From Dorea formicigenerans (GTDB lineage Bacteria; Bacillota; Clostridia; Lachnospirales; Lachnospiraceae): 64,000 nt of DNA. Numbering within the stretch: the first letter of the stretch is position 1; the number at the start of each line of letters is the position of its first letter. A program made the position numbers and the translations under genes. Shown here piece by piece: positions 1 through 13,498 of this stretch. The DNA is taken from the NCBI RefSeq assembly GCF_025150245.1, contig NZ_CP102279.1:1423423-1487422 (forward strand). Direction: 5' to 3'. The notes below the pieces were generated by a model that worked only from the letters and a program-made list of their open reading frames with translations, ran no database searches and had not been told where the DNA came from.

Positions 1-927
1 AAAAAACCGTCGGTCGTTATGATCTGCATTACCTGTGTGGATGCCCTTCTTGGAACGGATATGGAGCGGGTGTGCAAAAAGGCGGAAGAACAGGTAGAGA
101 TTCCGGTCAGACCTTGTTATATGTATGCACTTACAAGAGAAGGCCGAAAACCACCGATGGTACATGTAAGGCAGTCCTTATATTCACTGCTTGAGCCGGG
201 AAAAAAGAAAGGCAATGTAGTCAATCTTTTGGGATTTTTCTCGCCGCTTGTGGATGACTGTGAAATTTATGATCTGCTGCACAGTGCGGGAGTGAAGACG
301 ATTCATGAGATTTCCAGATGTAAGGATTATATGGAATATCAGACTATGTCAGAAGCAAATTTCAATCTGGTACTGCACCACGAAGCAAGATTTGCAGCAG
401 AAGATTTTCACAACCGGCTTCAAATTCCATTTATCGAGCTTCGAAGACTTTATCAGATAGACAAGATTGAAAATCAGTATCATGCACTTGGTAATGCACT
501 CGGTGTTGCATTTTATGATGAAAAATATAAAAAGCAGGCAGAAGATGCACTGGAAAAATTCCGGCAGAGGTGTCCGGATGCTTCTTTTGCAATCGGAGAA
601 TGCCTGAACGCTGATCCATTTGAACTATCATTAGCCTTGATACGTTACGGATTTTCTGTACCGGAAATTTATGGGACAATCACGGTGGAGAACTTCACAT
701 ACATTCGTTCTCTGGCAAAAATAAGTCCAGAGACGAAAGTATTTTCCAATATGGAACCGACGATGATTTATTATGACCCGGCGAAAAGCGATGTGAATCT
801 GGCAATCGGAAAAGATGCCTGTTATTATCATCCGGATTGTCCATATGTCATGTGGAACGGGGAAGAACAGCCATATGGATATGCAGGAGTGAGAAGATTA
901 TTCGAACAATTACTGGAGGTAGTATAG
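1..927 (+). CDS. Nitrogenase component 1 alpha-like protein (D1), 5' end outside window
   Basis: The reading frame is open from base 1 to a TAG at 925-927, so the first ATG at 19 is internal and the N-terminus lies upstream of the window; 308 residues are visible. The opening ITCVDALLGTDM resembles the conserved cysteine and G-D-D region of NifD/NifE (Cys154 area), and the end (PYGYAGVRRLFEQLL) matches the family's C-terminal YGYDG motif. Where NifD has FeMo-cofactor ligand Cys275, this protein appears to carry His (NLVLHHEARFAAEDFH), so it should not hold FeMo-co in the usual way. The next gene overlaps it by one base, implying translational coupling into a D/K complex. It could be catalytic or a NifE-like scaffold; the substrate is unknown. 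The family call is firm and the role is inferred. Confidence 0.75.
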   Translation, partial: KKPSVVMICITCVDALLGTDMERVCKKAEEQVEIPVRPCYMYALTREGRKPPMVHVRQSLYSLLEPGKKKGNVVNLLGFFSPLVDDCEIYDLLHSAGVKTIHEISRCKDYMEYQTMSEANFNLVLHHEARFAAEDFHNRLQIPFIELRRLYQIDKIENQYHALGNALGVAFYDEKYKKQAEDALEKFRQRCPDASFAIGECLNADPFELSLALIRYGFSVPEIYGTITVENFTYIRSLAKISPETKVFSNMEPTMIYYDPAKSDVNLAIGKDACYYHPDCPYVMWNGEEQPYGYAGVRRLFEQLLEVV

Positions 928-2135
928 TGAGAGGACTTAGAAAATATCTGACACCATTTGCACCGGATCAGTCTGGTGCGGTGTCCGTGTTATATGAACT
1001 TGGGGGACTGATCGCAATCTGTGACGCCGGCGGCTGTACAGGAAATGTATGTGGTTTTGATGAGCCGCGCTGGTTTGAACAAAAAAGTGCCTTGTTCAGT
1101 GCGGGACTGCGTGATATGGACGCAATTCTCGGACGAGATGACCGTCTGGTGGAGAAGCTGGTGGATGCAGCTTCAAAGCTCGATGTAAAGTTTGTAGCAA
1201 TCATCGGGACACCGGTTCCGGCAGTAATCGGAACGGATTACAAGGCACTTGGAAGAATGTGCGAGAAAAAATTAAATATGCCTGTTATCACCATTGATAC
1301 AGATGGTATGGAATTATATGATGTGGGCGAAGAAAAAGCATGGCTGGAGCTTTTCCGGACATTTGCAGAAAAGGAAATGATTGATAAGGCAAGTGAAAGA
1401 ATTAAGCCGAATCTGGATATTGAGAAAAAACAGGGAAAGATCGGGGTTCTTGGATTAACGCCGCAGGACATAAGTGACCTTCAGGCACCAAAGAAGATTC
1501 GAGAATATTACCAGGAAAAAGAAGGAAAAGAAGCAATCTGCTACTGCATGGGAGAAAATGTCTGCCGGAGCACGGATGGTCTTGATAATCATCGAACAGC
1601 AGGAGAGGTTGAAAAAAATATTGTAGCTTCCCCGGCGGCTCTGGCAGCTGCGAAATATCTGGAAAAAACATTTGGCACACCTTATGAGGTCACTTACCCA
1701 ATTGTAGAAGAGCTGGTTCCGGATATGGATTATCGGAGAAAGAAAATCCTAATCGTGCATCAGCAGGTTATTGGAAATGCAATGCGTGCAGAAATCAGAC
1801 GAAGATGCCAGAAAGTAAATGGTGATCCAGCTGTTGATAACAATGCAGTTATTACGGTAGCAAGCTGGTTCATGATGAAGCAGGAACTCTCCGAAGAAGG
1901 TGACATTTCACTTCGAGAAGAAGATGATTATATGGAGCTTATCAAGAAAGAGGATTACGACATTGTTTTTGCAGATCCGATGATGAAACGCATGACTGAA
2001 GATGCTTATAAAATGGCTGGAACAGGTTGTGTGGCGGATGCACATGAGACGGAAAGAAAAAGAATTTTTATAGATGCCACACATTTTGCCGTGTCAGGAA
2101 AATTGCGTGAGGAAATGAAAAAGCGGGAGGCGTAG
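927..2135 (+). CDS. Nitrogenase component 1 beta-like protein (K1)
   Basis: I chose the GTG at 927 (402 residues): it overlaps the preceding TAG by one base and sits six bases after GGAGGT at 915-920. The longer frame back to 837 lies inside the upstream gene. The N-terminus (SGAVSVLYELGG, then CDAGGCTGN) matches the NifK/NifN entry region; Cys37 aligns by eye with NifK Cys95, and Cys32 and Cys42 lie nearby. The place of NifK Cys153 reads GTPVPAVIGTDY and has no Cys. K2 (9416-10576) is clearly a paralogue, sharing ALYELGG-type, GC, DEIRW/DEPRW and G-P-x-x-x-GTD patterns. It probably pairs with D1. Two bases separate it from hypF. Reaction unknown. Confidence 0.75.
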   Translation: MRGLRKYLTPFAPDQSGAVSVLYELGGLIAICDAGGCTGNVCGFDEPRWFEQKSALFSAGLRDMDAILGRDDRLVEKLVDAASKLDVKFVAIIGTPVPAVIGTDYKALGRMCEKKLNMPVITIDTDGMELYDVGEEKAWLELFRTFAEKEMIDKASERIKPNLDIEKKQGKIGVLGLTPQDISDLQAPKKIREYYQEKEGKEAICYCMGENVCRSTDGLDNHRTAGEVEKNIVASPAALAAAKYLEKTFGTPYEVTYPIVEELVPDMDYRRKKILIVHQQVIGNAMRAEIRRRCQKVNGDPAVDNNAVITVASWFMMKQELSEEGDISLREEDDYMELIKKEDYDIVFADPMMKRMTEDAYKMAGTGCVADAHETERKRIFIDATHFAVSGKLREEMKKREA

Positions 2136-2137
2136 AG

Positions 2138-4534
2138 ATGAAAGAAACATTGACCAGACGAATCCGTGTCTACGGAATTGTTCAGGGAGTCGGTTTTCGT
2201 CCAACTGTAAGCCGTCACGCAACGACTTGTAATATCCATGGGAGCGTCAGTAACAAAGGTCCTTATGTAGAGATTTTCGCACAGGCGCCAGAAGCACAGG
2301 TGGATAGATTTGTGACCATGATCCGTGAACAGTCTCCGAAACGTGCAGCAATCTTGAAGATGAATATAGAAGACGTTGAAAATCCGGAAATTTATAAAGA
2401 TTTTCAGATTGTTGAGAGCGAAAAGACGAAAGGGGAAATCTTTGTCTCTCCAGATATTGCAATCTGCGAAGAGTGCAAGGAAGAGATGTATCAGCCGGGG
2501 AACAGACGGTATCTGCATCCATTTATTAACTGTACATGCTGCGGACCGAGACTGACTATTTTAGATGCACTTCCGTATGACCGGGAACGTACCAGTATGA
2601 AAGAATTTCCAATGTGTCCGGACTGTGAACACGAATACCATGATCCAGAGGACCGCAGATTTGATGCACAGCCTGTTTGCTGCAATAATTGTGGACCACA
2701 GGTGTATCTGGCAGAAAGAAGCGAACGAGGACGAGACGCGGTTACTTACGCCAGACGCGTAATCGCGGAAGGCGGAATTGTGGCAGTCAAAGGAATCGGT
2801 GGGTTTCATTTGTGCTGTGATGCGACAAAGGAATCAGCCGTGGAACTTTTGAGGACAAGAAAAAAACGTCCGGTCAAACCATTTGCAGTGATGGCACGTA
2901 ACGAAGAGGCGGTGCGCAGTGTATGTGAACTTAGCGAAGAACAGGAAAAGATACTGACCGGGCATCAAAAACCGATACTGTTGCTGGATAAAAAAGAAGG
3001 CGTAAGCAAACTTGCAAAATCGGTAGCTCCTTTTAATCCGAAGGTGGGGATAATGCTTCCTTATGCACCGGTTCAACTATTGTTATTTCAGTATGATGAC
3101 GGCATTCAGATGCCGGATTTTCTCGTGATGACCAGTGGAAATATTTCCGGTGCACCAATTTGCAGAGATGACCGGGAAGCAAAAGAGGAACTGTCACATT
3201 TATGCGACTGCATACTTTCTCATGACCGGAAGATCCGTATCCGTGCAGACGATTCCGTGATGGATTTTTACCGGGAAGAACCGTATATGATCCGAAGAAG
3301 CCGGGGGTATGCACCACTCCCATATATGCTTTCAAAAGCGTGGCAAGGGCAGGTACTTGCTGTGGGCGGAGAATTGAAAAATGCATGTTGTATTGGACAT
3401 GATGACCGGTTTTATCCGGCGCCGTATGTAGGAGATCTGGAAGATCTTCGGACGGTGAAAGCGCTTCAGGAGACAATCACGCGACTGACTGCTTTGCTGG
3501 AAGTAGAGCCAGAGCTTGTAGTGGCAGATCTGCATCCGAAGTACAATTCCACAATGGTGGCGCATGAAATGGAGCTGCCAATGATACAAGTGCAGCATCA
3601 TTATGCGCACGTTTTATCCTGTATGGCGGAAAATGACTGCGCAGATCCAGTCATTGGCGTTTCCTTTGATGGAACCGGATATGGAACGGATGGTACTATC
3701 TGGGGCGGTGAGATTCTGTACGCAGATTATGAACATTTCGAACGAATAGGCAGTATTGAGCCATTCTGGCATGTAGGCGGAGACATTGCTTCCCAAGAAG
3801 GATTTCGTATTGCAGTCTCCATCATTGGTGGACTTGTGAGGGAGAAAGAAAAAGCAAAAAATATCATAAAAGAATTGGAATTATGTACCGAACCAGAAGC
3901 AAATGTGATTCTTACTATGGCACAGCGACATTTGAATGCAATTGAGTCTACAAGTGCAGGAAGGTTGTTTGACGCAGTAAGTGCGATCTTGGGGATTCAA
4001 AAAAGCTCTACATTTGAAGGGGAAGCGTCCATGGCACTGGAATTCGCAGCAGAGGCATGGCAGAAAGAACATGAGGCAAAGAATACGGAAAATACCAAAA
4101 ACGCCAAAAATGCCGAGAATGTCAAGAATGCCCCAAATGCTAAGAATGGTAAGCATACAGATGTTAAGGAGCATGAACATATTTTCTTGCAGACGAATGC
4201 AATTGTCTGGCAGATGATCGAGGGCAGAAGACAAGGGGAAGATGTCGGAAAGCTTGCGTATATATTTCATCAGTTGCTTGCAATGGAGATCTGCGCTGCC
4301 TGCGAAAATGTACGAACGCAGAAGAAATGTAATCAGGTGGCGCTAAGCGGCGGCGTATTTCAGAACCGTCTATTGCTGGAACTCGTGGAAAAGGAACTTT
4401 TAAATCGAAAGTTCCAGGTATTGCGGCATCATCTGATTCCACCAAATGATGGCGGTATCGGGCTTGGCCAGGCAGTTTACGGCATGGCATATCTGAATAA
4501 AAAGAAGCAGACAGATAGTGAAAACAGATCTTGA
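2138..4534 (+). CDS. hypF: Carbamoyltransferase HypF
   Basis: HypF uses carbamoyl phosphate and ATP to carbamoylate the C-terminal Cys of HypE, the first step in making the cyanide ligands of the hydrogenase Fe(CN)2CO group. The 798 residues show the full domain order: acylphosphatase (GIVQGVGFRPTV near 15), two zinc-finger blocks with four CxxC pairs (about 110-190), YrdC-like domain (about 200-380), and a Kae1-like domain with HHYAH, SFDGTGYGTDG and LSGGVFQN. The start follows GGGAGG closely. Oddity: residues about 649-672 are eight Asn-x-(Lys/Glu) tripeptides encoded by 9-base tandem units at 4082-4153, an insertion not expected in the family. Embedding between nitrogenase-like genes is the unusual context. 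The family assignment is very secure. Confidence 0.96.
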   Translation: MKETLTRRIRVYGIVQGVGFRPTVSRHATTCNIHGSVSNKGPYVEIFAQAPEAQVDRFVTMIREQSPKRAAILKMNIEDVENPEIYKDFQIVESEKTKGEIFVSPDIAICEECKEEMYQPGNRRYLHPFINCTCCGPRLTILDALPYDRERTSMKEFPMCPDCEHEYHDPEDRRFDAQPVCCNNCGPQVYLAERSERGRDAVTYARRVIAEGGIVAVKGIGGFHLCCDATKESAVELLRTRKKRPVKPFAVMARNEEAVRSVCELSEEQEKILTGHQKPILLLDKKEGVSKLAKSVAPFNPKVGIMLPYAPVQLLLFQYDDGIQMPDFLVMTSGNISGAPICRDDREAKEELSHLCDCILSHDRKIRIRADDSVMDFYREEPYMIRRSRGYAPLPYMLSKAWQGQVLAVGGELKNACCIGHDDRFYPAPYVGDLEDLRTVKALQETITRLTALLEVEPELVVADLHPKYNSTMVAHEMELPMIQVQHHYAHVLSCMAENDCADPVIGVSFDGTGYGTDGTIWGGEILYADYEHFERIGSIEPFWHVGGDIASQEGFRIAVSIIGGLVREKEKAKNIIKELELCTEPEANVILTMAQRHLNAIESTSAGRLFDAVSAILGIQKSSTFEGEASMALEFAAEAWQKEHEAKNTENTKNAKNAENVKNAPNAKNGKHTDVKEHEHIFLQTNAIVWQMIEGRRQGEDVGKLAYIFHQLLAMEICAACENVRTQKKCNQVALSGGVFQNRLLLELVEKELLNRKFQVLRHHLIPPNDGGIGLGQAVYGMAYLNKKKQTDSENRS
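4082..4153 (+). repeat. Eight 9-base tandem coding repeats inside hypF
   Basis: Eight consecutive in-frame 9-base units encode Asn-Thr-Glu, Asn-Thr-Lys, Asn-Ala-Lys, Asn-Ala-Glu, Asn-Val-Lys, Asn-Ala-Pro, Asn-Ala-Lys and Asn-Gly-Lys. The units are related but degenerate. They form a hydrophilic, probably unstructured loop in the Kae1-like domain of HypF. A 9-base period preserves frame, so copy number could vary between strains without destroying the gene. Confidence 0.85.
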
Positions 4535-4569
4535 AAGATAAAAAGAATAGATTATGGGAGGTTAAGAGC

Positions 4570-4779
4570 ATGTGTGTTGGATTATCAGCAAAGGTAGTGC
4601 GAATAAATGAAGGCATGGCAGTGGTAGATGCTGATGGAGCAAAGAGGGAGGTTTCTGCGGAACTTCTGGATGAACTGGAGCCGGGAGATTATGTAATGGT
4701 ACATGCAGGAGTTGCAATCGCGAAGATTACGGATGAAGATGAAAGTGAGACAGATCAGCTCATGGAGGATTTATTATAA
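4570..4779 (+). CDS. hypC: Hydrogenase maturation chaperone HypC
   Basis: HypC is a small chaperone that, with HypD, carries the iron on which CO and cyanide ligands are assembled. The start at 4570 gives the diagnostic N-terminus MCVGLSAKVV, in which Cys2 is the essential iron/HypD-binding residue; the longer frame from 4531 would bury it. GGGAGG lies just upstream. At 69 residues it has the usual family size, with the expected acidic C-terminus and the GDYVMVHAGVAI segment. It overlaps hypD by one base (TAATG), so the partner proteins are co-translated. In hydrogenase systems HypC also docks on the large subunit; no such subunit is visible here, so its final acceptor is open. Confidence 0.93.
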   Translation: MCVGLSAKVVRINEGMAVVDADGAKREVSAELLDELEPGDYVMVHAGVAIAKITDEDESETDQLMEDLL

Positions 4780-5837
4780 TGGAAGAAAAAAAGAAAACAG
4801 CCAGAGAGATCATCGAAGGCTATGATGGTCCTCCGGTGCGGATCATGGAAGTGTGCGGAACCCATACACATGAGATTTTCAGACTTGGAATCCGGAAACT
4901 TTTGCCAGAACAGGTGGAACTGATTTCGGGACCGGGGTGTCCGGTCTGTGTAACACAGGTCGGATTCATTGACGAAGCAATTTATCTGGCACTGGAAAGG
5001 CAAGTGACGATCTGTACATTTGGTGATCTTGTACGTGTACCGGGAACTAATATGAGTCTTGCCGGGGCAAGAGAAAAGGGTGCGAAAATCCGTATTGTTT
5101 ATTCTCCAGTAGATGCGAAGGAGTATGCCAAAGAACATCCAAAGGAGCAGGTTACATTCCTTTCAGTCGGATTTGAGACCACCACTCCGTCTGCTTGTCT
5201 TTCTGTGAAAAAAGCAAGGGAAGAGGGCTTGACGAACTACTCGATTCTGACAGCGAATAAAACGATGCCGCAGGCATATGAAGCATTGAAGGGAAGCGCA
5301 GACATTTTCCTGTATCCGGGACATGTTAATGCAATCACCGGGACGAAGCTGTGCGAAGAACTGGCAAAAGAAGGAGTCAGCGGTGTGGTAGCAGGATTTA
5401 CAGCAAAAGAACTTTTGACAGCGCTGGCAGTGGCACTGGCACGGTTTCAGGAAGGCAGGCCATTTTTTGTAAATTGTTATCCGCGTGTAGTAACAGAGAA
5501 TGGAAGCCCACAGGCGCAGAAGCTGGTAGAAGAGATGATGGAACCTTGTGATAGTGAATGGAGAGGACTTGGCGTAATCAAAGGTTCAGGAATGAGACTT
5601 CAAGAGGAATGGAGCGCATTTGACGCACGGAAGAAATACAAGATTCCGTCGATTCAGGGAAAAGCAAATCCTGCATGCCGGTGCGGAGATGTTCTTCAGG
5701 GAAAATGTAAACCTTCTGATTGTAAGGTATTTGGTAAGGTCTGTACACCACAGCATCCGGTTGGCGCATGCATGGTGTCAGGAGAAGGTGCATGTTCCGC
5801 GTACTATATGTACGGCGAAGCAGAAAAAATGAAATAA
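4779..5837 (+). CDS. hypD: Hydrogenase maturation scaffold HypD
   Basis: HypD is the iron-sulfur scaffold on which Fe(CN)2CO is built with HypC and HypE. The 352 residues contain the hallmark MEVCGTHTHEIFR and SGPGCPVCVTQ motifs near the N-terminus, GFETTTPS in the middle, YPGHVNAITG, and the C-terminal cysteine block (ACRCGD, CKPSDCKVFGKVCTP) that binds the [4Fe-4S] cluster. All key cysteines appear intact, so the protein should be active. It begins on the last base of hypC and is followed 20 bases later by hypE. With hypF, hypC and hypE present, ligand synthesis is complete in this operon, whereas nickel-insertion genes are not seen. Confidence 0.96.
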   Translation: MEEKKKTAREIIEGYDGPPVRIMEVCGTHTHEIFRLGIRKLLPEQVELISGPGCPVCVTQVGFIDEAIYLALERQVTICTFGDLVRVPGTNMSLAGAREKGAKIRIVYSPVDAKEYAKEHPKEQVTFLSVGFETTTPSACLSVKKAREEGLTNYSILTANKTMPQAYEALKGSADIFLYPGHVNAITGTKLCEELAKEGVSGVVAGFTAKELLTALAVALARFQEGRPFFVNCYPRVVTENGSPQAQKLVEEMMEPCDSEWRGLGVIKGSGMRLQEEWSAFDARKKYKIPSIQGKANPACRCGDVLQGKCKPSDCKVFGKVCTPQHPVGACMVSGEGACSAYYMYGEAEKMK

Positions 5838-5857
5838 AAAGCTGGGAGTGATATATT

Positions 5858-6877
5858 ATGAATAATGGAATAAAAGATCAGACAGTCACCATGGCACACG
5901 GTGCCGGAGGACGTCAGACATCAGAATTAATCGATAACATATTTGCGGCACATTTTGCAAATCCGGATTTGACTGCGGATGATGCGGCTGTGTTAAATCC
6001 GCCAGTTGGGAAAATGGCAGTGTCTACCGATGGATTTATCGTATCACCTGCATTTTTCCCAGGAGGAAATATCGGAAAACTGTCTATTTGCGGAACAGTC
6101 AATGATCTGGCGTGTATGGGAGCAAAGCCACTGTATCTGACCTGTGCATTTGTCATTGAGGAAGGATTTCCAATGGACAAACTGGAAGAAATTGCGTCAG
6201 CAATGGAAAAAACCGCCAAAGAAGCAGGTGTTCACATCGTGTCCGGTGATACAAAGGTAGCCGGAAAAGGGCAGGTGGACGGAGTATTTATCACAACAAC
6301 AGGAATGGGACAGATTGAAGATGGAGTTAAAGTCGGCGGCGAGCTTGCAAAACCCGGTGATGCGGTTATTGTAACAGGAGATATCGGACGTCATGGCTGT
6401 ACAATCCTGCTTGAGAGAGAAGATTTGGGAATTGAGGCCGATATCAAGAGTGATTGTGCACCCCTTTGGAAGACGGTGGAAGCAGTGATGAACAGGACAC
6501 ACGATCTGCATGTTATTCGTGATGCGACACGTGGCGGCGTGGGAACTGTATTATATGAAATTGCGAAGCAGAGCCAGGTAGGCGTACAGCTTGACAGCGC
6601 CAATATTCCGGTTCAGCCGGAAGTAAGGGGTGTCTGTGGCATGTTGGGACTGGAACCATTGTATCTTGCATGTGAAGGAACTATGGTCATCATTGCACCG
6701 AAGGAAGAAGCAGCGAAGATTGTGGAGACATTGCGTCAGTGCCCATATTCAGAAAATGCTGCTATTATTGGTGAAATTACAGAAGAACAGCCGGGAAAAG
6801 TTGTAATGATGACGGAGATTGGAACCCAGGCATTATTGCCACAGCCAGGCGGAGAATTATTGCCGAGAATCTGCTAA
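5858..6877 (+). CDS. hypE: Hydrogenase maturation dehydratase HypE
   Basis: HypE is an ATP-dependent dehydratase of the PurM/SelD/ThiL fold. It converts the carbamoyl group on its own C-terminal Cys into a thiocyanate, the cyanide donor for HypCD. The 339-residue protein starts with the family pattern (MAHGAGGRQTSELI), carries SGDTKVAG and DATRGGVGTVLYE for nucleotide and metal binding, and ends exactly in PRIC, the strictly conserved tail whose Cys is modified. The intact tail argues for real cyanide chemistry rather than a decayed relic. GGGAGTG precedes the start. It is separated by 38 bases from a TM1266-type gene, and the operon then continues to the NifH-like gene. Confidence 0.96.
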   Translation: MNNGIKDQTVTMAHGAGGRQTSELIDNIFAAHFANPDLTADDAAVLNPPVGKMAVSTDGFIVSPAFFPGGNIGKLSICGTVNDLACMGAKPLYLTCAFVIEEGFPMDKLEEIASAMEKTAKEAGVHIVSGDTKVAGKGQVDGVFITTTGMGQIEDGVKVGGELAKPGDAVIVTGDIGRHGCTILLEREDLGIEADIKSDCAPLWKTVEAVMNRTHDLHVIRDATRGGVGTVLYEIAKQSQVGVQLDSANIPVQPEVRGVCGMLGLEPLYLACEGTMVIIAPKEEAAKIVETLRQCPYSENAAIIGEITEEQPGKVVMMTEIGTQALLPQPGGELLPRIC

Positions 6878-6915
6878 GATCAGATTACTTAGAAATAAGA
6901 GCAGGGAGAGAAAGT

Positions 6916-7188
6916 ATGGAAACAAGAGTAGCAGTGATTTCTATTATTGTAGAAAACCCGGAGGCGACGGAGCAGTTGAATCAATATCTGCATGAGTCTG
7001 GAAAATATATTATTGGAAGAATGGGAATCCCGTACCGTCAAAAAGGAATCCATATTATCAGTATTGCGATTGATGCGCCGCAGGACGTGATCAGTGCGCT
7101 TTCTGGAAAAATAGGGCGCCTTAAGGGAGTGTCGGCAAAGACTGCTTACTCCAATGTCATCACCAAACCGGAGGAATTATCATGTTAA
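6916..7188 (+). CDS. TM1266-type small ACT-like regulator
   Basis: This 90-residue protein matches the TM1266 family, annotated as a putative iron-only hydrogenase system regulator with a NikR/ACT-like fold. Visible hallmarks are the strand [13 protein letters not shown], the central [18 protein letters not shown], and the [16 protein letters not shown] end. Such genes usually sit beside hydE, hydF or hydG; here it lies between hypE and a nifH-like gene. It overlaps the next gene by seven bases, so the two are translationally coupled. No DNA-binding domain is visible, so a metal- or metabolite-sensing or assembly role is as likely as transcription control. Family call good, function unproven. 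Confidence 0.8.
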
Positions 7189-7937
7189 AAATTGCAGTTT
7201 ATGGCAAAGGCGGTATCGGAAAATCTACGACAGTATCCAATATGGCGGTCGCACTGGCTGAAAAAGGATTATCAGTTATGCAGATTGGCTGTGACCCAAA
7301 GGCAGATTCTACGATTGCCTTGCGCGATGGAGAACCTATGCCGGCAGTATTGGATATCTATAATGAGAAAAAAGGCAATGTGACTTTGAAAGAGATTACA
7401 AGAATCGGATACAAAGGAGTTGTCTGTGTGGAGTCAGGAGGACCGACCCCGGGACTTGGCTGTGCAGGACGCGGAATTATCACTGCACTGGAGAAACTAA
7501 AAGAGACCGGAGCATATGAAGTCTACAAACCGGACGTAGTCCTTTACGATGTACTTGGCGATGTAGTGTGTGGCGGATTTTCCATGCCTATGCGGAGTGG
7601 GTATGCAGACTATGTATTTGTTGTAACTTCGGGAGAAAATATGTCCATTCATGCCGGAGCGAACATTGCAATGGCACTGGAACGCTTCCAGAATCGCGGA
7701 TATGCAAAACTTGGCGGATTTATTCTGAACCGGAGAAATGTGCCAAGAGAAGAAGAAAAAGTGCAGGAACTGGCAGAAGATTTCCATAGTGGTACTATTG
7801 GGTACCTCTCCAGAAGCGAGCTTGTAATGGCAGCTGAAGAGCAGAAAAAAACGTTGATGGAGTGTTATCCTGACAGTGAGATGGCAGATGAATACCGTGC
7901 TCTGAGTGAGGCGGTTCTGGCGATATGTAAGAACTAA
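7182..7937 (+). CDS. NifH-like nitrogenase reductase homologue
   Basis: This is a homodimeric ATP-driven electron donor of the NifH/BchL/CfbC superfamily. Visible motifs are the P-loop GKGGIGKST at residues 8-16, CDPKADST at 37-44, Cys94 in GLGCAGRG and Cys130 in [11 protein letters not shown]. Those two cysteines per subunit hold the shared [4Fe-4S] cluster, so both ATPase and cluster sites are intact. At 251 residues it is somewhat shorter than nitrogenase NifH (about 270-290), as expected for a divergent member. GGAGG precedes the ATG, which overlaps the previous gene. It is the only reductase beside two component-1-like pairs, so one donor may serve both. The partner and reaction are inferred from the family. 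Confidence 0.92.
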
Positions 7938-8000
7938 GCTGCCGAGGCATTTTTGAACAAAATGTGAAATGTAGTGGGAAAGAATTTAGAGAGGGAATTT

Positions 8001-9419
8001 ATGTTAAAACGAGTAGGACAGACGGAAATGGAGAAAAACCATGTAACCCCGGAAGGAGCCATGATCAGAATAAAAGATGCGTCCTATCCGGCACCATTTC
8101 ATCCGGGATTGGAGTTTAACTCTCCGGTTCATGGAAACTGGAATATTGTACACACCGGAATGTTGATGCCGGAGACCATTCAGATATATGTCTGTGCAGA
8201 TAACTGTATGCGTGGTGTTGTATTGACGGCGGCCGAGATGAATGCGGCAGATCGTTTTTCATACGTGATCATCGAAGAAGACGATCTGTTGAACGGAAAT
8301 CTGGAGGATATCACAATTGAAGGCGTCACAGATGTATTAAAGAAACTGGAACGAAAACCCAAAGCAGTGCTCTTATTTACCGTGTGCCTCCATCATTTTC
8401 TTGGCTGTGATCTTAAGATGGTCTATGAGGAACTTGACAGGCGTTTCCCGGAAATTGCATTTGTACGCTGTTATATGGATCCGATTATGCAAAAAACTGG
8501 TCTGACACCAGATCAGAAACTGCGAAAAGCAATGTATGATCCATTAAAAGCACAAAAAGCAGATCCACATATCGTCACGTTGCTTGGACATAATTTCCCA
8601 TTGGACGAAACTTCTGACATCAAACGATTCCTGAAAAAATGTGGCTGTGAACTCAGAGAGATTACGACTTGTGATACATGGGACAAGTATGAGAAACTTG
8701 GTGAAGCGAATATATTTCTTTCTATCTATCCGACAGCAAAATACGGGGCGCAGACGCTGGCAAAAAGACTGGGACGAGAACACATTTACATGCCGGCAAG
8801 TTTTGATTATGAAGAGATAAAGCAGCAGATGGAAAGATTGGCAGAGATACTGGAAAAGACACTGGTATCTAAGATAATTCAGACGTCTGAAGAACAGATA
8901 GAGACATTAAATGTGTTGATAGATGCACAAAAAGATTTCTATTACGAAAAAGAGATTGAAGCTTGCGAAGAAACTATTAAAAAAGTAAGAGAAGTTGTTG
9001 GAGACACACCAATCGTCATCGACTATCTCATGCATCCGAGACCGCTTGGACTGGCAAAATATCTTTTAGAACATGGATTTTGTGTGGAAGCTGTTTATCT
9101 GGATGGTGTAAGCCCGGAGGAAGAACAGGAATTTTACTGGCTTAGCAAACATGCGCCGGAACTGGAGCTTCGCGCGACCATTCAGCCAAAGATGCGCGTG
9201 CTTCCAAGAAATCATGAAGGAAAAATGCTGGCACTGGGACAAAAAGCAGCATGGTTCACCCAGAGCCCATATTTTGTGAATGTAGTTGAAGGCGCAGGGT
9301 GGTATGGATTTGATGGAATCCGGAAAATGGCAGAACTTATGATCCGGGCTTACAAAGAAGAAAAAGAAGTGGAGGATCTGGTTGTGCGAAAAGGATGGGG
9401 GTGCGAAAGCTGCATATGA
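8001..9419 (+). CDS. Nitrogenase component 1 alpha-like protein (D2)
   Basis: I prefer ATG 8001 (472 residues) because GAGAGGGA lies just before it; the alternative GTG at 7974 has no clear ribosome site. Cys65 and Cys69 (VCADNCMRG) and Cys129 and Cys136 (TVCLHHFLGCD) occupy the region of NifD Cys88 and Cys154. The Cys62 equivalent seems lost, and the FeMo-co ligand Cys275 appears replaced by Ser in the segment IFLSIYPTAKYG. The C-terminus has the family GWYGFDGIRKM motif, then a tail ending CESCI that could bind metal. It overlaps K2 by four bases (ATGA). Most like BchN/CfbD-type minimal enzymes that bridge a [4Fe-4S] cluster, but the substrate is unknown. Confidence 0.8.
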   Translation: MLKRVGQTEMEKNHVTPEGAMIRIKDASYPAPFHPGLEFNSPVHGNWNIVHTGMLMPETIQIYVCADNCMRGVVLTAAEMNAADRFSYVIIEEDDLLNGNLEDITIEGVTDVLKKLERKPKAVLLFTVCLHHFLGCDLKMVYEELDRRFPEIAFVRCYMDPIMQKTGLTPDQKLRKAMYDPLKAQKADPHIVTLLGHNFPLDETSDIKRFLKKCGCELREITTCDTWDKYEKLGEANIFLSIYPTAKYGAQTLAKRLGREHIYMPASFDYEEIKQQMERLAEILEKTLVSKIIQTSEEQIETLNVLIDAQKDFYYEKEIEACEETIKKVREVVGDTPIVIDYLMHPRPLGLAKYLLEHGFCVEAVYLDGVSPEEEQEFYWLSKHAPELELRATIQPKMRVLPRNHEGKMLALGQKAAWFTQSPYFVNVVEGAGWYGFDGIRKMAELMIRAYKEEKEVEDLVVRKGWGCESCI

Positions 9420-10576
9420 GACAGACATACAAAATTATACCAATTTACACGGCGGATGTGTCGGGTGTCTGTTCTGCACTTTATGAACTGGGCGGTATGA
9501 CAGTGATGCATGATCCGTCCGGCTGTAATTCTACTTATAATACACATGATGAGATCCGCTGGTATGACCAGGACAGCCTGATCTACATCTCGGGACTTAC
9601 TGAAATCGATGCGATTATGGGAAATGATGAAAAGTTCCTGAATGATATCATGGATGCAGCACGGGAATTAAAACCGAGGTTTATTGCACTTGCCGGATCG
9701 CCGATTCCATATATGAACGGAACAGATTTTCCGGCACTGGCAGAAGTGCTGGAACAGGAACTTGGGATTCCTACATTTTCTGTACCGACCAATGGTATGC
9801 ACGATTATGTATATGGTGCAGGACTAGCTCTGGAGCAGATTGCAAGGCAGTTTGTGCCTGCAAAGGCAGTTTGCGAAGAGAAAAATATACAGCCACATAC
9901 GGTTAATCTTCTTGGTGTCACGCCACTTGATTTTGGAGCATATAGCCGTGCCGGATATATGAAAAAAAATCTGGAAAAATGTGGCTGGAAGGTGTTATCA
10001 ACCTGGGCGATGGGAGATGATCTTGAAGTATTGAGCCATGCACTGGAAGCAGAAGTAAATCTTGTTGTATCTTCCGTGGGATTGCGCACCGCAAAATATC
10101 TGGAAAAAGAATATAAAATGCCATATGTAGTTGGGACGCCAGTAGGAACATTTACAGAAGAAATCGTACAGGCATTGGAGAAGAAAGAACGATACCCATA
10201 TAAAAGATTACGTGAAGAAAATTCGGATAAGGAGCAGCCTGGAAGCGGCAAAAACGATAAAGAAGTTATGCTGATCGGTGAACCGGTCACGACAGAGTCA
10301 CTGGCTTTGGCTATTGAACAGAAATATGGAATACCAGTTCATGTATTATGCCCGTTACAGGAGACGGAAGATTTATTGTTTCGAACAAGCCGGCAGGTTC
10401 TTGGAGAGGAAGACATGGAAGAAGCTTTAAAAGATGCAGATATCATAGCAGCAGATCCAATGTACCGTCCGATCTGTCCGAAAAAATGTGAGTTCTACGA
10501 ACTTCCACATCTGGCATTTTCCGGAAGAATTTACAAGAAAAAGCTGGAAAAAATCGAAGATTTCTGGAAGTATTAA
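9416..10576 (+). CDS. Nitrogenase component 1 beta-like protein (K2)
   Basis: The start at 9416 uses the ATGA overlap with D2 and gives 386 residues; a second in-frame ATG at 9395 cannot be excluded. It is a paralogue of K1, with ADVSGVCSALYELGG, HDPSGC (Cys37, aligned by eye to NifK Cys95), DEIRWY, and GSPIPYMNGTDF where NifK has Cys153. Thus only Cys37 and perhaps Cys19 remain for cluster binding, suggesting a simple bridging cluster shared with D2 rather than an eight-iron P-cluster. A Lys/Glu/Gly-rich stretch near residue 270 resembles a linker. It ends the recognisable operon; about 100 non-coding bases follow. Confidence 0.78.
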   Translation: MRQTYKIIPIYTADVSGVCSALYELGGMTVMHDPSGCNSTYNTHDEIRWYDQDSLIYISGLTEIDAIMGNDEKFLNDIMDAARELKPRFIALAGSPIPYMNGTDFPALAEVLEQELGIPTFSVPTNGMHDYVYGAGLALEQIARQFVPAKAVCEEKNIQPHTVNLLGVTPLDFGAYSRAGYMKKNLEKCGWKVLSTWAMGDDLEVLSHALEAEVNLVVSSVGLRTAKYLEKEYKMPYVVGTPVGTFTEEIVQALEKKERYPYKRLREENSDKEQPGSGKNDKEVMLIGEPVTTESLALAIEQKYGIPVHVLCPLQETEDLLFRTSRQVLGEEDMEEALKDADIIAADPMYRPICPKKCEFYELPHLAFSGRIYKKKLEKIEDFWKY

Positions 10577-10680
10577 AATCAATGATAACTGCAGTGCATT
10601 TTATGAGCCATCTTATGTGATCGCAAGAGCATATCAGAACGGTGGGTTTTAAATGAAGGTATGTAAAAAGGAGGGAGCGT
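10577..10680 (+). other. Spacer with possible gene remnant after K2
   Basis: The 104 bases between K2 and the next gene contain a frame open from 10578 to a TAA at 10650-10652 that would end in ...YEPSYVIARAYQNGGF. It has no start or ribosome site and could be the tail of a lost gene or chance. Positions 10648-10680 include the AAAGGAGGGAGCG ribosome site of the downstream DUF3841 gene, and this leader is copied at about 12120. Confidence 0.3.
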
Positions 10681-11238
10681 ATGTCGAATATTACCGTCTG
10701 GACTAAACAGCATGAAAATGTGTTAAAAGAGTTGGAGACGACCGGTCGTTATATTGCGAAGCGGGAGTATATCAGGATGGATTTGAAAGAACAGGCTCCG
10801 GTCGTGCTGGAAGCTTATGACTGGCTGGTAAAGCACGGACCGGACAGAGCGAATAAACCGGCAGACGTGGAGTATCCGGTATGGGTGTCATTTACCAACG
10901 AAGGAACAATGATGAACAGTGAAAATACAGTAATTTTAGAGTTGTCACTGGATCCTGCAATCATTACATCAGTTAATATCGCAAAGTGGGGACATATTTT
11001 AAATTACGGATATATTCCGAAAGACGAAAATGACTTAAGACGCCACAGACAACTTCTGGATGATTATGGAATCAGTGATGTAAAAGCAGTTATTTCCCAG
11101 TTCTATCCACAGATTAAGCGTGAGATACAAAATAGCTGGGAGCGGTTGTTTGATGATACAATCCTTATGGGAAGCGATGCGAAATATGGAAATGTATGGG
11201 AGTTGAAGAGAGAATGGCTGACAGATGTAATACGATAA
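10681..11238 (+). CDS. DUF3841-like protein, copy A
   Basis: A 185-residue soluble protein of unknown function, starting after a strong AAGGAGGG site. The opening SNITVWTKQHENVLKELETTGRYIAK and the later segments (YDWLVKHGP, YPVWVSF, SWERLF, VWELKREWL) look like the DUF3841 family; that assignment is from memory of the pattern. No catalytic motif, signal peptide or membrane span is visible. The next gene is a divergent homologue that overlaps it by 25 bases, so the two may form a pair. Its first 70 or so codons and leader are duplicated at 12120-12360. I cannot assign a function. Confidence 0.7.
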   Translation: MSNITVWTKQHENVLKELETTGRYIAKREYIRMDLKEQAPVVLEAYDWLVKHGPDRANKPADVEYPVWVSFTNEGTMMNSENTVILELSLDPAIITSVNIAKWGHILNYGYIPKDENDLRRHRQLLDDYGISDVKAVISQFYPQIKREIQNSWERLFDDTILMGSDAKYGNVWELKREWLTDVIR

Positions 11239-11792
11239 GACTGTATTCTTTTCAGACTGATGTTGTATATCAGGTATTGAAACGGGACGGCGTATGTTAT
11301 TCAAAAGAAGAGTATGTACGAAAAAAATATAAGGAGTCTGCGAAGGTATTTATAAATGCATATGGCTGGTTTGTAAAGGAGGCGCAGCATATAGTTCCAA
11401 AACCAGAAGGAGCCGAGTATCCATACTGGGCATTCACAGATCTTTATAATGTGGATCAGACAGGAGATGGACATGTGCTGACGTTAGACGTGCCAATAGG
11501 AGAAGCAATCTTGTTCGACATGTTCGACTGGACGAAGATTATGCAGATGCATTATATCGGTGAAAATGAATCGGAAGAAGCAACATTTTCCGAAGAATTG
11601 AAAAATATGGGGATGAATGAATTTCAGATTATGACCAGTAATTTTTATCCGGAGCAGAAAGCGAGAATTCAGGAAAGCTGGAAACGTCTGTTTGGTCATC
11701 AGCAAGCAATCGAGGCGGGGGATAACAGTGGTGTTCACAGTGTGCAGGCAGGACTGTGGTGCATCAAAGATGAGTGGATTATAAAAGAATAA
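11214..11792 (+). CDS. DUF3841-like protein, copy B
   Basis: A 192-residue homologue of the preceding protein; the shared landmarks are an N-terminal strand and QxxV...K, INAYGWFVKEAQ, EYPYWAF, a late FYPEQKARIQESWKRLFG, and a final Trp-rich WCIKDEWI. ATG 11214 (after GAAGAGAG) is preferred over the in-frame ATG at 11196. The 25-base overlap with copy A implies coupling. It is substantially diverged from copy A, so the duplication is old, unlike the fresh partial copy at 12153. No function can be given. Confidence 0.65.
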   Translation: MADRCNTIRLYSFQTDVVYQVLKRDGVCYSKEEYVRKKYKESAKVFINAYGWFVKEAQHIVPKPEGAEYPYWAFTDLYNVDQTGDGHVLTLDVPIGEAILFDMFDWTKIMQMHYIGENESEEATFSEELKNMGMNEFQIMTSNFYPEQKARIQESWKRLFGHQQAIEAGDNSGVHSVQAGLWCIKDEWIIKE

Positions 11793-12152
11793 TCATTGTG
11801 AGTTTTCCCAAAATATGCTATAATTCCAAAAAAATCGCATAATTTGACAATTTGTGACATATCGTCTATTTTATGTAAGCAATTACTTGATGGATAAGTA
11901 TAACAAAGATATTATAGCAATAAATGATGTTGGGGTCAAAAGCCCCAACTATGATGCCTACGGATTGTTCCGTGCGTTGCACTTCCACAATCCTCCCCAT
12001 TATTCGCATATCGTGGGATTGTCATCCTACTTTTAGGCTCATATTGGGGCGGGGCCCAAGGTCTTTCATCCACTTATGAGCAAGCTCATGTGGATTTAGA
12101 CCTTTTGCCCCTGGCATCTTTTAAATAAAGGTATGTAAAAAGGAGGGAGCGT
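11793..12152 (+). ncRNA. Non-coding stretch with a structured RNA-like element
   Basis: No convincing gene lies here; a 60-codon frame at 11854 has no ribosome site and crosses the hairpins. Visible structure: GTTGGGG (11929-11935) pairs with CCCCAAC (11943-11949). ACAATCC (11987-11993) can pair either with GGATTGT at 11962-11968 or with GGATTGT at 12016-12022. A long stem at 12046-12111 has GGGGC/GCCCC, AAGGTCT/AGACCTT, ATCCAC/GTGGAT and ATGAGC/GCTCAT arms. The mutually exclusive pairing resembles a regulatory RNA or a small mobile repeat. It lies directly upstream of the duplicated DUF3841 fragment. Confidence 0.45.
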
Positions 12153-12360
12153 ATGTCGAATATTACCGTCTGGACCAAACAGCATGAAAATGTGTTAAAA
12201 GAGTTGGAGACGGCCGGTCGTTACATTGCGAAACAGGAGTATATCAGGATGGATTTGAAAGAACAGGCTCCGGTCGTGCTGGAAGCTTATGACTGGCTGG
12301 TAAAGCACGGACCGGACAGGGCGAATAAACTGGCAGACGTGGAGTATCCGGTATGGGTGT
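12120..12360 (+). repeat. Recent partial duplication of DUF3841 copy A
   Basis: About 240 bases, from TAAATAAAGGTATG through YPVWV, are nearly identical to 10648-10890, including leader, ribosome site and start codon; only scattered single-base differences are visible. The similarity stops abruptly at about 12358, after which the sequence is unrelated. The near identity shows a recent event. Confidence 0.85.
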
Positions 12361-12506
12361 GCGATCCGACTTTTACATCGGGCAGACGCTCAAGTGGCTC
12401 TGGGGCATGCAAAATCGGTGCGGCTGGCGCTCCAGGTAACTGGACAGGAATGCTATGGCAGGAGTGGTACTTTTTTCGACGCTTCCAAGGAGGGAGGCGT
12501 CGCTGA
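12153..12506 (+). pseudogene. Truncated DUF3841 copy A joined to foreign sequence
   Basis: The first 69 codons copy DUF3841 copy A almost exactly, with the same strong ribosome site. From about codon 70 the frame runs into unrelated, basic, Gly/Ser/Arg-rich sequence and stops at 12506 (117 residues). The tail does not look like folded protein and lies out of frame with a better-looking frame at 12394-12696. This is most simply a broken duplicate, though a short chimeric product could still be translated. Confidence 0.7.
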
Positions 12507-12696
12507 GAGTATTTGGACAGAAGTGCTTAATTTAAGCAAAGCACCGGGAGATTTCTGGGTGCTTCAGATGGCAGAGGACGGATATACCGTTGAAAAGTTC
12601 GTTTACCGGGAAGGTGATTACACCGTCTGGTACACATTAGAGCCAAAATCATATACGGTCTACTATGAAGACTATATGGCTGGCAAAGAAGAATAA
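12361..12696 (+). pseudogene. C-terminal remnant of an unidentified gene
   Basis: In the frame ending at 12696 the sequence reads as plausible protein, especially from KAPGDFWVLQMAEDGYTVEKF to the end MAGKEE. It has no credible start: the GTG at 12394 lacks a ribosome site. A different frame at 12362-12440 also looks protein-like (DFYIGQTLKWLWG), which suggests a frameshifted remnant. I do not recognise the family. It is followed 19 bases later by the prepilin peptidase. Confidence 0.45.
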
Positions 12697-12715
12697 GATA
12701 GATGAGTAGAATAAC

Positions 12716-13498
12716 ATGTTAATTGTATTAGAAAGTATTTTATGGGTGATCCGGTTCTTTTTCGGAGCCTGTATCTTTAGTTTTTTGAATGTGGTGATTG
12801 ACCGTTTGCCAAGAGCAGAAAGTGTGGTAAACGGAAGAAGTCATTGTACGAATTGTGGCAGAGTATTACATGCGTGGGAACTGATCCCGTGTGTCAGCTA
12901 CATATTCCTGCGCGGACGATGTGCAGGTTGTAAAAGCCGCATTCCGGGAAGAGATTTCTTCGTGGAAGTGATTGGCGGCGCAGCATTTATCGGCTGTGGA
13001 ATTCGTTATGGCTGTGGCAGTCTTGGATTGTTATCAATGCGTGGTACAGTCATGTTGAGTTATTTTGGAATACTACTTGTGGTAGCCCTTATTGATTGGG
13101 ATACCCAGATTATTTATGATAGATTTCATATTTTTATATTGATATTAGCAATTGCAAATATATGGCTCGTTCCGGAGCACGGGCTTATAGACAGGCTGAT
13201 CGGAGCGCTGATCATCTCTGTTCCGATGCTGCTTCTGGCACTTGCAATCCCGGGAGCATTTGGCGGTGGGGATATCAAGTTAATGGCGGTCTCCGGAGCA
13301 TTTCTTGGGACAGGATCGGTAGTGTGCGCCATGTTTTTCGGGCTGCTGACAGGAGGCGCTTACGGAGCATTTATGCTAAAGAGCAAGAAATTAGGAAAAA
13401 AAGATGTATTTGCATTCGGACCATTTCTTGCATTCGGACTGGCGCTTGCGGCATTATATGGAAATCAGATCGTTACATGGTATCTGCATTTTTTATAA
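12716..13498 (+). CDS. Prepilin peptidase (type IV leader peptidase, A24)
   Basis: This membrane aspartyl protease cleaves and N-methylates type IV prepilin or pseudopilin signal peptides. The 260 residues show FLNVVIDRLP near the N-terminus, the cytoplasmic zinc-binding pair CTNCG...CAGC (about 42-70), the first active Asp in ALIDWDTQIIYDR, the second in GAFGGGDIKLMA, FAFGPFLAFG near the end, and seven to eight hydrophobic spans. All catalytic residues are present. The start is ATG 12716; the ribosome site is weak (GATGAGTAGAA). The nearby PilT remnant implies a type IV pilus or competence locus once stood here; no pilin gene is visible, so substrates must lie elsewhere. Confidence 0.92.
   Translation: MLIVLESILWVIRFFFGACIFSFLNVVIDRLPRAESVVNGRSHCTNCGRVLHAWELIPCVSYIFLRGRCAGCKSRIPGRDFFVEVIGGAAFIGCGIRYGCGSLGLLSMRGTVMLSYFGILLVVALIDWDTQIIYDRFHIFILILAIANIWLVPEHGLIDRLIGALIISVPMLLLALAIPGAFGGGDIKLMAVSGAFLGTGSVVCAMFFGLLTGGAYGAFMLKSKKLGKKDVFAFGPFLAFGLALAALYGNQIVTWYLHFL

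Follow-up and report, generated by a model that had tools for sequence, protein, structure and literature searches.

A run of hyp and nitrogenase-like genes in Dorea formicigenerans as a probable HydG-independent maturation system for [FeFe]-hydrogenase

The window analysed here, a stretch of 64,000 nucleotides from the Dorea formicigenerans genome (one contig, 3.19 Mb; NCBI RefSeq assembly GCF_025150245.1, contig NZ_CP102279.1, forward-strand positions 1,423,423 to 1,487,422), begins inside an eleven-gene, single-strand run with the order H1-D1-K1-hypF-hypC-hypD-hypE-TM1266-H2-D2-K2, in which maturation genes of the [NiFe]-hydrogenase type stand between two sets of nitrogenase-like genes, each set coding for a NifH-like iron protein (H) and two component 1-like proteins (D and K). 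We propose, with a probability of about 0.8, that this operon matures [FeFe]-hydrogenase without HydG, the place of which is taken by the Hyp proteins and the nitrogenase-like, ATP-driven reductases as suppliers of the Fe-CO-CN unit of the H-cluster. The genomic support for replacement of HydG is strong; the chemistry we infer. HypFCDE with a HypD clade of its own, together with the H-D-K sets, occurs in genomes that carry HydF and [FeFe]-hydrogenase-type genes and that, but for two exceptions, are without HydG at the model cut-off. The pathway known so far has HydG use tyrosine to build a mononuclear Fe(CN)(CO)2 synthon, which HydE then reduces and joins into a dimer before HydF completes the product and hands it over (PMC12752695; papers given by PubMed Central number are cited here from parts of their text).

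HydG, HydF and HydE in operon-bearing genomes

Presence and absence were tallied in a sample of 200 genomes (200 genus codes) from the family to which the window belongs, using lists compiled by hand from the search outputs, the lengths of which agree with the tallies. HydG scored above its cut-off in 101 of these genomes and HydF in 118. Eleven genomes carry the operon, scored in this sample as H1-D1-K1-hypFCDE, counting two in which it extends over two contigs (G091 and G136), one in which D1 and K1 are fused (G071), and one in which hypC was not called (G069). G051, whose hypD resembles the [NiFe] type and has no nitrogenase-like gene beside it on the contig, was left out of this count, and G002 and G022 were dropped for HypD matches under the cut-off. 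All eleven operon genomes possess HydF and a match to PF02906, the [FeFe]-hydrogenase-type catalytic domain, and none possesses HydG above the cut-off; in the ten other than the window's genome, the target hydrogenase is represented by this PF02906 match. Specifically, among HydF-bearing family genomes HydG was missing from 11/11 with the operon compared to 9/108 without it (Fisher test, 1.6e-10), and among HydG-less family genomes HydF was present in 11/11 with the operon compared to 9/87 without it (Fisher test, 1.5e-9); genes that are split (HydF in G085, HydG in G047) were counted as present. The best matches to the HydG model in the eleven genomes range from 3e-60 to 1e-19, with 2.8e-55 in the window's genome (187 bits against a cut-off of 312), and the stronger of them presumably represent ThiH.

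The association extends beyond the family. A scan of genome contigs with a D1 profile returned at least 461 relatives, of which the best 80 were kept as loci; these lie in genomes or metagenome-assembled genomes (MAGs) of Bacillota and Actinomycetota, including Blautia, Coprococcus comes, Eubacterium ramulus, Roseburia faecis, Anaerobutyricum hallii and Anaerostipes, the acetogens Clostridium ljungdahlii, C. ragsdalei, C. carboxidivorans and C. drakei, and MAGs with titles such as Coriobacteriaceae, Atopobiaceae and Oscillospiraceae. From these loci, 47 genomes were hand-picked for genome-level tests of HydG and HydF (one of them, E. ramulus ATCC 29099, G207, looks identical to family genome G159). 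HydG stayed under the cut-off in 45 of the 47, and HydF was found in 45; one of the two HydF misses (L147) has a piece of HydF at a contig end. In 25 of the 47 genomes, some of them incomplete assemblies, no match to the HydG model was better than 8e-24, and therefore no lyase of HydG or ThiH grade was found there; in C. ljungdahlii none was better than 7e-19.

Gene order provides a second line of evidence, since in part of the loci HydE and HydF share a gene run with the hyp and nitrogenase-like genes, and since the run contains TM1266, a gene of HydEFG operons. HydE was seen in 15 of the 80 loci, and HydE and/or HydF in 23. These 23 divide into 12 in which HydE or HydF lies on the same strand as a core gene, overlapping it or at most 57 bases away, and 11, all from records with actinobacterial titles, in which it is divergent and 48 to 5379 bases from H1 or D1. 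HydE-HydF stands between D1 and K1 in two loci (L171 and L180), while other orders include HydF-HydE-D2-K2-H1-D1-K1-hypFCDE (L162) and hypE-HydE-HydF (L165). In 4 of the 11 operon-bearing family genomes the run has HydE or HydF as a direct neighbour, as K2-HydF in G025, K2-HydF-HydE in G069 and G083, and hypE-HydE in G071. An overlap of 3-13 bases between hydF and the end of K2 is present in seven examined loci (L121, L130, L134, L141, L146, L043 and L050). HydG-bearing relatives show the run TM1266-HydE-HydG-HydF in 6 of 20 regions (L189, L194, L195, L198, L199 and L202).

The window's genome itself is equipped for the later steps. HydF (561 bits, cut-off 326) and HydE (610 bits, cut-off 255) are encoded by adjacent genes, and two group A [FeFe]-hydrogenases score above the cut-off. 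Both of these enzymes contain what we take to be H-cluster motifs 1 and 3, found by script, and motif 2, found by eye. The PF02906 domain is far more widespread in the family sample than the maturase, occurring in 185 of the 200 genomes compared to only 118 with HydF above the cut-off; in many of these genomes the PF02906 proteins may have no H-cluster, or maturation may follow some other, unknown route.

The distribution on a quick HydF tree of 60 rows suggests that the operon route and HydG have been swapped repeatedly in evolution, rather than following one inherited pattern, because operon and HydG labels interleave: there are 14 changes of the operon label, at least 4 of which are forced by supported branches.

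Alternative roles for the Hyp proteins

The initial annotation of this stretch had tied the iron chemistry of the Hyp proteins to a nitrogenase-like enzyme, in which the Hyp-made group might be installed or reduced. There is good support for coupling the Hyp proteins to these reductases rather than to a [NiFe]-hydrogenase. The stricter form of that idea, in which the iron group made by Hyp stays in D1K1 or D2K2 as a permanent cofactor and thus creates a new Fe-CN-CO reductase with a substrate of its own, seems unlikely to us. It would fit the position of H1-D1-K1 directly ahead of hypF in most loci, the scaffold NifEN among the closest known folds, and the occurrence of H2-D2-K2-related sets without Hyp beside FecBCD-type importer genes; however, it leaves unexplained the HydE and HydF genes within the gene runs, the absence of HydG, and the TM1266 gene.

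The most conventional assignment would have the hyp genes mature a [NiFe]-hydrogenase, with the nitrogenase-like genes as unrelated neighbours. HypFCDE are the classic [NiFe] maturases, and HypF, HypC, HypD and HypE all score above their NCBIfam cut-offs here, as does the TM1266 protein; in addition, a [NiFe] group 1a large subunit is reported in each of eight Clostridium acetogens (PMC9431212). Nevertheless, the window's genome already contradicts this assignment: in agreement with the initial annotation, which saw no hydrogenase subunit, hypA or hypB, a search of the whole genome found no [NiFe] large subunit and no HypA, and only matches under the cut-off for HypB. A [NiFe] operon hidden just upstream was rejected on inspection of the 15.4 kb before the window and on the negative genome-wide search for the large subunit. 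The operon is thus not a [NiFe] system in this genome. The check for a full [NiFe] operon elsewhere combined with an unconserved gene order, which the initial annotation had set out as grounds for refutation, also left the association standing, as the gene order is conserved in many genomes.

The wider sample points the same way. HypD is above the cut-off in 30 of the 200 family genomes and a [NiFe] large subunit is found in 20; the large subunit is missing from 10 of 11 operon genomes, yet present in 18 of the 19 other HypD genomes (Fisher test, 3.8e-6), and one further genome (G129) has a [NiFe] match without HypD. The exception among the eleven, G069, carries two hypD genes, one in the operon and one a few kb from its [NiFe] gene. 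HypA is above the cut-off in only 1 of 11 operon genomes (G069) and HypB in 2 (G069 and G124), compared to 7/7 and 6/7, respectively, in a set of seven [NiFe] genomes. Finally, in a HypD tree of 42 rows, 29 operon HypDs, including that of the window, are separated from 13 other rows with branch support of 100/99; the 13 were labelled from context or similarity, two of them (L065 and L078) are the same protein, and the source genome of one (L075, from G051) gave no [NiFe] large subunit. With the large subunit, HypA and HypB mostly missing and the HypD clade separate, we consider [NiFe] maturation as the function of the operon very improbable.

Equally hard to credit is the idea that HydE and HydF act without any CO/CN synthase, using free cellular CO and cyanide, with the operon serving an unrelated role: PMC9431212 cites an in vitro activation of ~1% with HydE and HydF as the sole maturases and speculates that acetogens use free ligands, and six HydF-bearing, HydG-less genomes returned no K2 match, but the linkage of HydE and HydF to the hyp and nitrogenase-like genes and the statistics of HydG exclusion would then be coincidence.

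Proposed route and its standing

Each known system shares features with the operon and differs from it in others. As in HydE-HydF-HydG maturation, HydF and [FeFe]-hydrogenase-type genes occur in the same genomes (for the 47 hand-picked genomes, this applies to HydF only), and HydE, HydF and TM1266 occur in the same run in part of the loci, whereas the CO/CN-making tyrosine lyase HydG of that system is not above the cut-off in 11/11 family and 45/47 hand-picked operon genomes. As in HypFCDE(AB) maturation of [NiFe]-hydrogenase, the operon supplies HypF, HypC, HypD and HypE above cut-off with their key residues; unlike in that system, the genomes mostly lack the large subunit, HypA and HypB, and HypD forms its own branch. 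Two H-D-K sets of nitrogenase fold in one run recall NifHDK and NifEN, yet the proteins lie under all equivalog cut-offs (K2 was outside that scan) and D1 and D2 lack the cluster-anchoring cysteine of NifE. The Nfl, Mar, Cfb and Bch reductases likewise combine a NifH-like iron protein with a two-subunit reductase of the same superfamily, whereas here the genes stand in a hydrogenase-maturation context, and the run showed neither tetrapyrrole nor sulfur-salvage genes. Because the operon fails one tested defining feature of each of these systems, we count it as a variant that works like [FeFe]-hydrogenase maturation.

Established Hyp chemistry provides the starting point: carbamoyl phosphate is the source from which HypF and HypE form cyanide, and an Fe(CN)2CO unit resides on HypCD, for which Fe(I)-CO as well as Fe(I)-(CO)2 forms have been proposed (PMC4161419). 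In the route that we propose, HypF and HypE would likewise produce cyanide from carbamoyl phosphate, and HypC and HypD would assemble a mononuclear Fe-CN-CO unit, such that HypFCDE would contribute cyanide, iron and the first CO. The nitrogenase-like proteins would then apply ATP-driven, low-potential electrons to turn this unit into a CO-richer, low-valent form suitable for HydE and HydF, either through a second CO drawn from CO2 or through reduction of the iron. HydE and HydF would complete the 2Fe subcluster and load HydA. Nitrogenase iron proteins can reduce CO2 to CO.

We lean towards a broader reading as well, in which nature would possess a third way of making a biological Fe-CO-CN centre: two nitrogenase-like reductases would rework the Hyp-made units, with the organometallic iron complex itself as their substrate, and the product would feed HydE and HydF without HydG or tyrosine, in a system repeatedly swapped with HydG and present in common human gut genera and gas-fermenting acetogens.

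Several observations weigh against a replacement of HydG by the operon. Two of the 47 hand-picked genomes, from Clostridium drakei and C. thailandense, have HydG above the cut-off and thus both systems together. Conversely, the operon was not detected in nine HydF-bearing, HydG-less genomes of the family, and six of these (G011, G114, G122, G128, G142 and G181) gave no K2 match at 1e-10 in a search for which D1 and H1 were not used as queries, so that HydG can be missing for other reasons. HydE and HydF lie ~1.1 Mb from the operon in the window's genome; HydE turned up in 5 of 11 operon family genomes (G000, G069, G071, G083 and G124), where no genome-wide HydE search was made, and neither HydE nor HydF was seen in the stretch covered for the remaining 57 of 80 loci. 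Draft or metagenome assemblies make up many of the genomes used. The operon label on the quick, weakly supported HydF tree is more clustered than in label shuffles (3/500 as low), and the HypD tree carries a long-branch warning. For acetogens, PMC9431212 makes a motif-based claim of HydG for C. autoethanogenum and puts forward atypical HydG candidates for other species, and the [NiFe] group 1a enzymes in all eight of its Clostridium species mean that Hyp may have two clients there (the 47 genomes were outside the [NiFe] search). Lastly, the canonical HypCD product is Fe(CN)2CO, compared to one CN and two CO per iron in the H-cluster precursor, and extra chemistry must therefore be assumed.

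Among the six genomes without a K2 match, only G011 has HypD, together with a [NiFe] gene. The other three of the nine (G048, G117 and G134) possess an H-D-K set related to H2-D2-K2, only distantly so in G048, and no HypD. In G117 and G134 (L037 and L040), these Hyp-less sets lie near FecBCD-type importer genes, HydF and TM1266, with HydE also present in L037, which prompts the idea of an iron precursor taken up from outside there rather than made. In G142 and G181 (L094 and L095), which have no HydG above the cut-off and no K2 match, HydF and TM1266, with HydE too in L094, stand beside a gene for an NMT1-type substrate-binding protein and importer-like open reading frames, possibly a further HydG-less arrangement.

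Earlier work touches on parts of this picture. The initial annotation had taken the combination of genes to be undescribed, which holds only in part: Dos Santos et al. 2012 (PMC3464626) noted, for Coprococcus catus and other Firmicutes, an association of NifHEN-like proteins with proteins of hydrogenase maturation and considered a possible role in assembly of an active-site metallocluster. Their C. catus genes, with two linked NifHEN copies, are probably the same gene set, whereas the account, in the part consulted, does not connect them with HydE and HydF or with the absence of HydG, HypAB and [NiFe]-hydrogenase. A 2022 study of eight Clostridium acetogens (PMC9431212) reported HydE and HydF without HydG in 5/8, and HypCDEF without HypAB in 5/8, stating that its authors had no straightforward explanation and listing scenarios. 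Among the matches listed in open-licence PubMed Central literature, no paper joined these facts or proposed a replacement of HydG. A term search of a 2025 review of the [NiFe] cofactor (PMC12134894) gave no match for FeFe, nitrogenase or HydG, and the part consulted of a gene-essentiality study of C. autoethanogenum (PMC9004356) contained nothing on hyp or nitrogenase-like genes. PMC9147875 names nitrogenase-like genes and HydE without linking them in the text consulted, and a report of strong H2 release by Blautia coccoides (PMC6306167) led nowhere for the operon question.

If replacement of HydG is correct, H-cluster assembly, thought to need HydG, would have a HydG-free route, which would answer the puzzle of PMC9431212, in which HydE and HydF without HydG, and HypCDEF without HypAB, each occur in five of eight industrially relevant acetogens. 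The nitrogenase superfamily would gain a role in building organometallic cofactors, joining three metallocluster pathways. Hydrogenase prediction for gut genomes would also change, as a verdict of incomplete maturation for missing HydG would be wrong, and biotechnology would obtain a new gene set for [FeFe]-hydrogenase production.

The nitrogenase-like proteins and the gene layout

In Pfam, the NifH-like proteins score above the cut-off of Fer4_NifH and the D/K-like proteins above that of Oxidored_nitro; H1, D1, K1, H2 and D2 fall under every NCBIfam cut-off for NifH, NifD, NifE, BchN and CfbC in a scan that did not include K2. The top NCBIfam match of D1 is NifE, at 7e-19 and far under the cut-off. 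Profiles of D1, K1, D2 and K2 gave only distant matches to structures of NifE, NifN, NifD and BchB, and the D2 profile searched against the Protein Data Bank with hmmsearch gave weak NifE matches and nothing else. AlphaFold2 models of D1 and D2 have predicted local distance difference test scores of 86 and 85; Foldseek matched the D1 model to nitrogenase and NifEN chains, best to a MoFe-protein chain (E 1.5e-17), and insofar as this model holds, its resemblance to the NifEN scaffold is a lead towards binding or transfer of a cluster precursor.

Invariant cysteines are few: 83, 84, 141, 144 and 171 in D1 (29 sequences), 37 and 42 in K1 (28 sequences), 78, 138 and 477 in D2 (26 sequences), and 44 in K2 (25 sequences). 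In profile alignments, neither D1 nor D2 has a cysteine at the NifE position that we take to anchor the cofactor or cluster. With the cofactor cysteine missing and few cluster cysteines, the proteins have the look of ATP-driven reductases that carry an Fe-S cluster, their cofactor site being empty or filled by substrate. Dos Santos et al. 2012 (PMC3464626) describe nitrogenase-like clades without ligands for the iron-molybdenum cofactor and with few cluster cysteines, and the D proteins of the operon fit that description. An identity as nitrogenase was rejected, given no equivalog-level similarity and no cofactor-anchoring cysteine; methylthio-alkane reductase (PMC10418091, PMC12552129) and tetrapyrrole reductase were set aside, as no sulfur genes and no tetrapyrrole genes were seen in the run. 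In two family genomes (G069 and G083), the run contains a single NifH-like gene alongside two D-K pairs, an arrangement that suggests joint action of the sets.

Variant arrangements of these genes were also observed. D1 and K1 are apparently fused into one 812-residue reading frame in G071 (L054, 7354-9792). A third nitrogenase-like set, arranged K-D-H, lies apart from the hyp genes in the window's genome (L058, 434000-453900; locus positions 9662-12761), with an open reading frame that clusters with ATP-binding cassette (ABC) transporter ATPases less than 6 kb from it. In G175, an ABC-transporter ATPase fused to a TM1266 domain adjoins H2-D2-K2 (L035, 12732-13832).

The layout of the operon is given in Table 1. 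The initial annotation had described ten same-strand genes, from D1 to K2, as one operon with short gaps; all ten are intact and on one strand, with overlaps of at most 25 and gaps of at most 38 bases between genes. Its starting point has to be moved, as the operon begins before the window, where a second NifH-like gene, H1, precedes D1; the operon therefore contains two H-D-K sets. The key residues, as first described, are intact in the sets of both kinds, with P-loop and cluster-cysteine motifs in both NifH-like proteins and an LPRIC end on HypE.

Table 1. Genes of the operon, numbered from the first base of the window (negative positions lie upstream)
Gene	Position	Strand	Product and supporting match
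H1	-1155..-400	+	NifH-like; passes Pfam Fer4_NifH cut-off; P-loop and cluster-Cys motifs present
D1	-395..927 (window part 1..927)	+	Nitrogenase component 1-like (NifE/NifD-like); Oxidored_nitro 99 bits
K1	927..2135	+	Nitrogenase component 1-like partner; Oxidored_nitro 54 bits; profile matches NifE/NifN
hypF	2138..4534	+	Carbamoyltransferase, cyanide-ligand synthesis; TIGR00143 759 bits (cut-off 466)
hypC	4570..4779	+	Distinct subfamily, MCVG start; TIGR00074 64 bits (cut-off 48; scored on longer TTG form)
hypD	4779..5837	+	Scaffold of Fe-CN-CO unit; TIGR00075 385 bits (cut-off 193)
hypE	5858..6877	+	Thiocyanate made on C-terminal Cys; TIGR02124 432 bits (cut-off 252)
TM1266	6916..7188	+	TM1266-type putative regulator; TIGR03959 117 bits (cut-off 61); family known from [FeFe]-hydrogenase maturation operons
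H2	7182..7937	+	NifH-like ATPase/iron protein; Fer4_NifH 285 bits; P-loop and cluster-Cys motifs intact
D2	7974..9419	+	Nitrogenase component 1-like; Oxidored_nitro 59 bits
K2	9395..10576	+	Nitrogenase component 1-like partner; Oxidored_nitro 97 bits

Conservation of the run was assessed in the 61 loci with at least 8 kb of sequence after D1, in which labels were assigned by BLAST to the window's proteins, such that divergent copies may be missed: hypF was seen in 61, hypE in 60, hypD in 59, D2 in 57, hypC in 55, K1 in 51, K2 in 50, TM1266 in 36 and H2 in 34. HypF contains acylphosphatase, zinc-finger, YrdC and Kae1-like domains. For hypC, a start at ATG 4570, giving Met-Cys, is the best reading and is preferred over TTG 4531; 71/71 relatives, a few of which share genomes, begin with MCVG, and four HypC proteins of [NiFe]-bearing genomes begin with MCVA. 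The LPRIC C-terminus of HypE recurs in 63/63 relatives with matches that reach the C-terminus. PMC12130793 names the PRIC motif of HypE, the cysteine of which carries the cyanide precursor.

Past the operon, at 10681-11792 and 12153-12506, the window contains two neighbouring DUF3841 genes and a further open reading frame. The start of this reading frame nearly repeats the start of the first DUF3841 gene and then diverges, which looks like a partial duplication.

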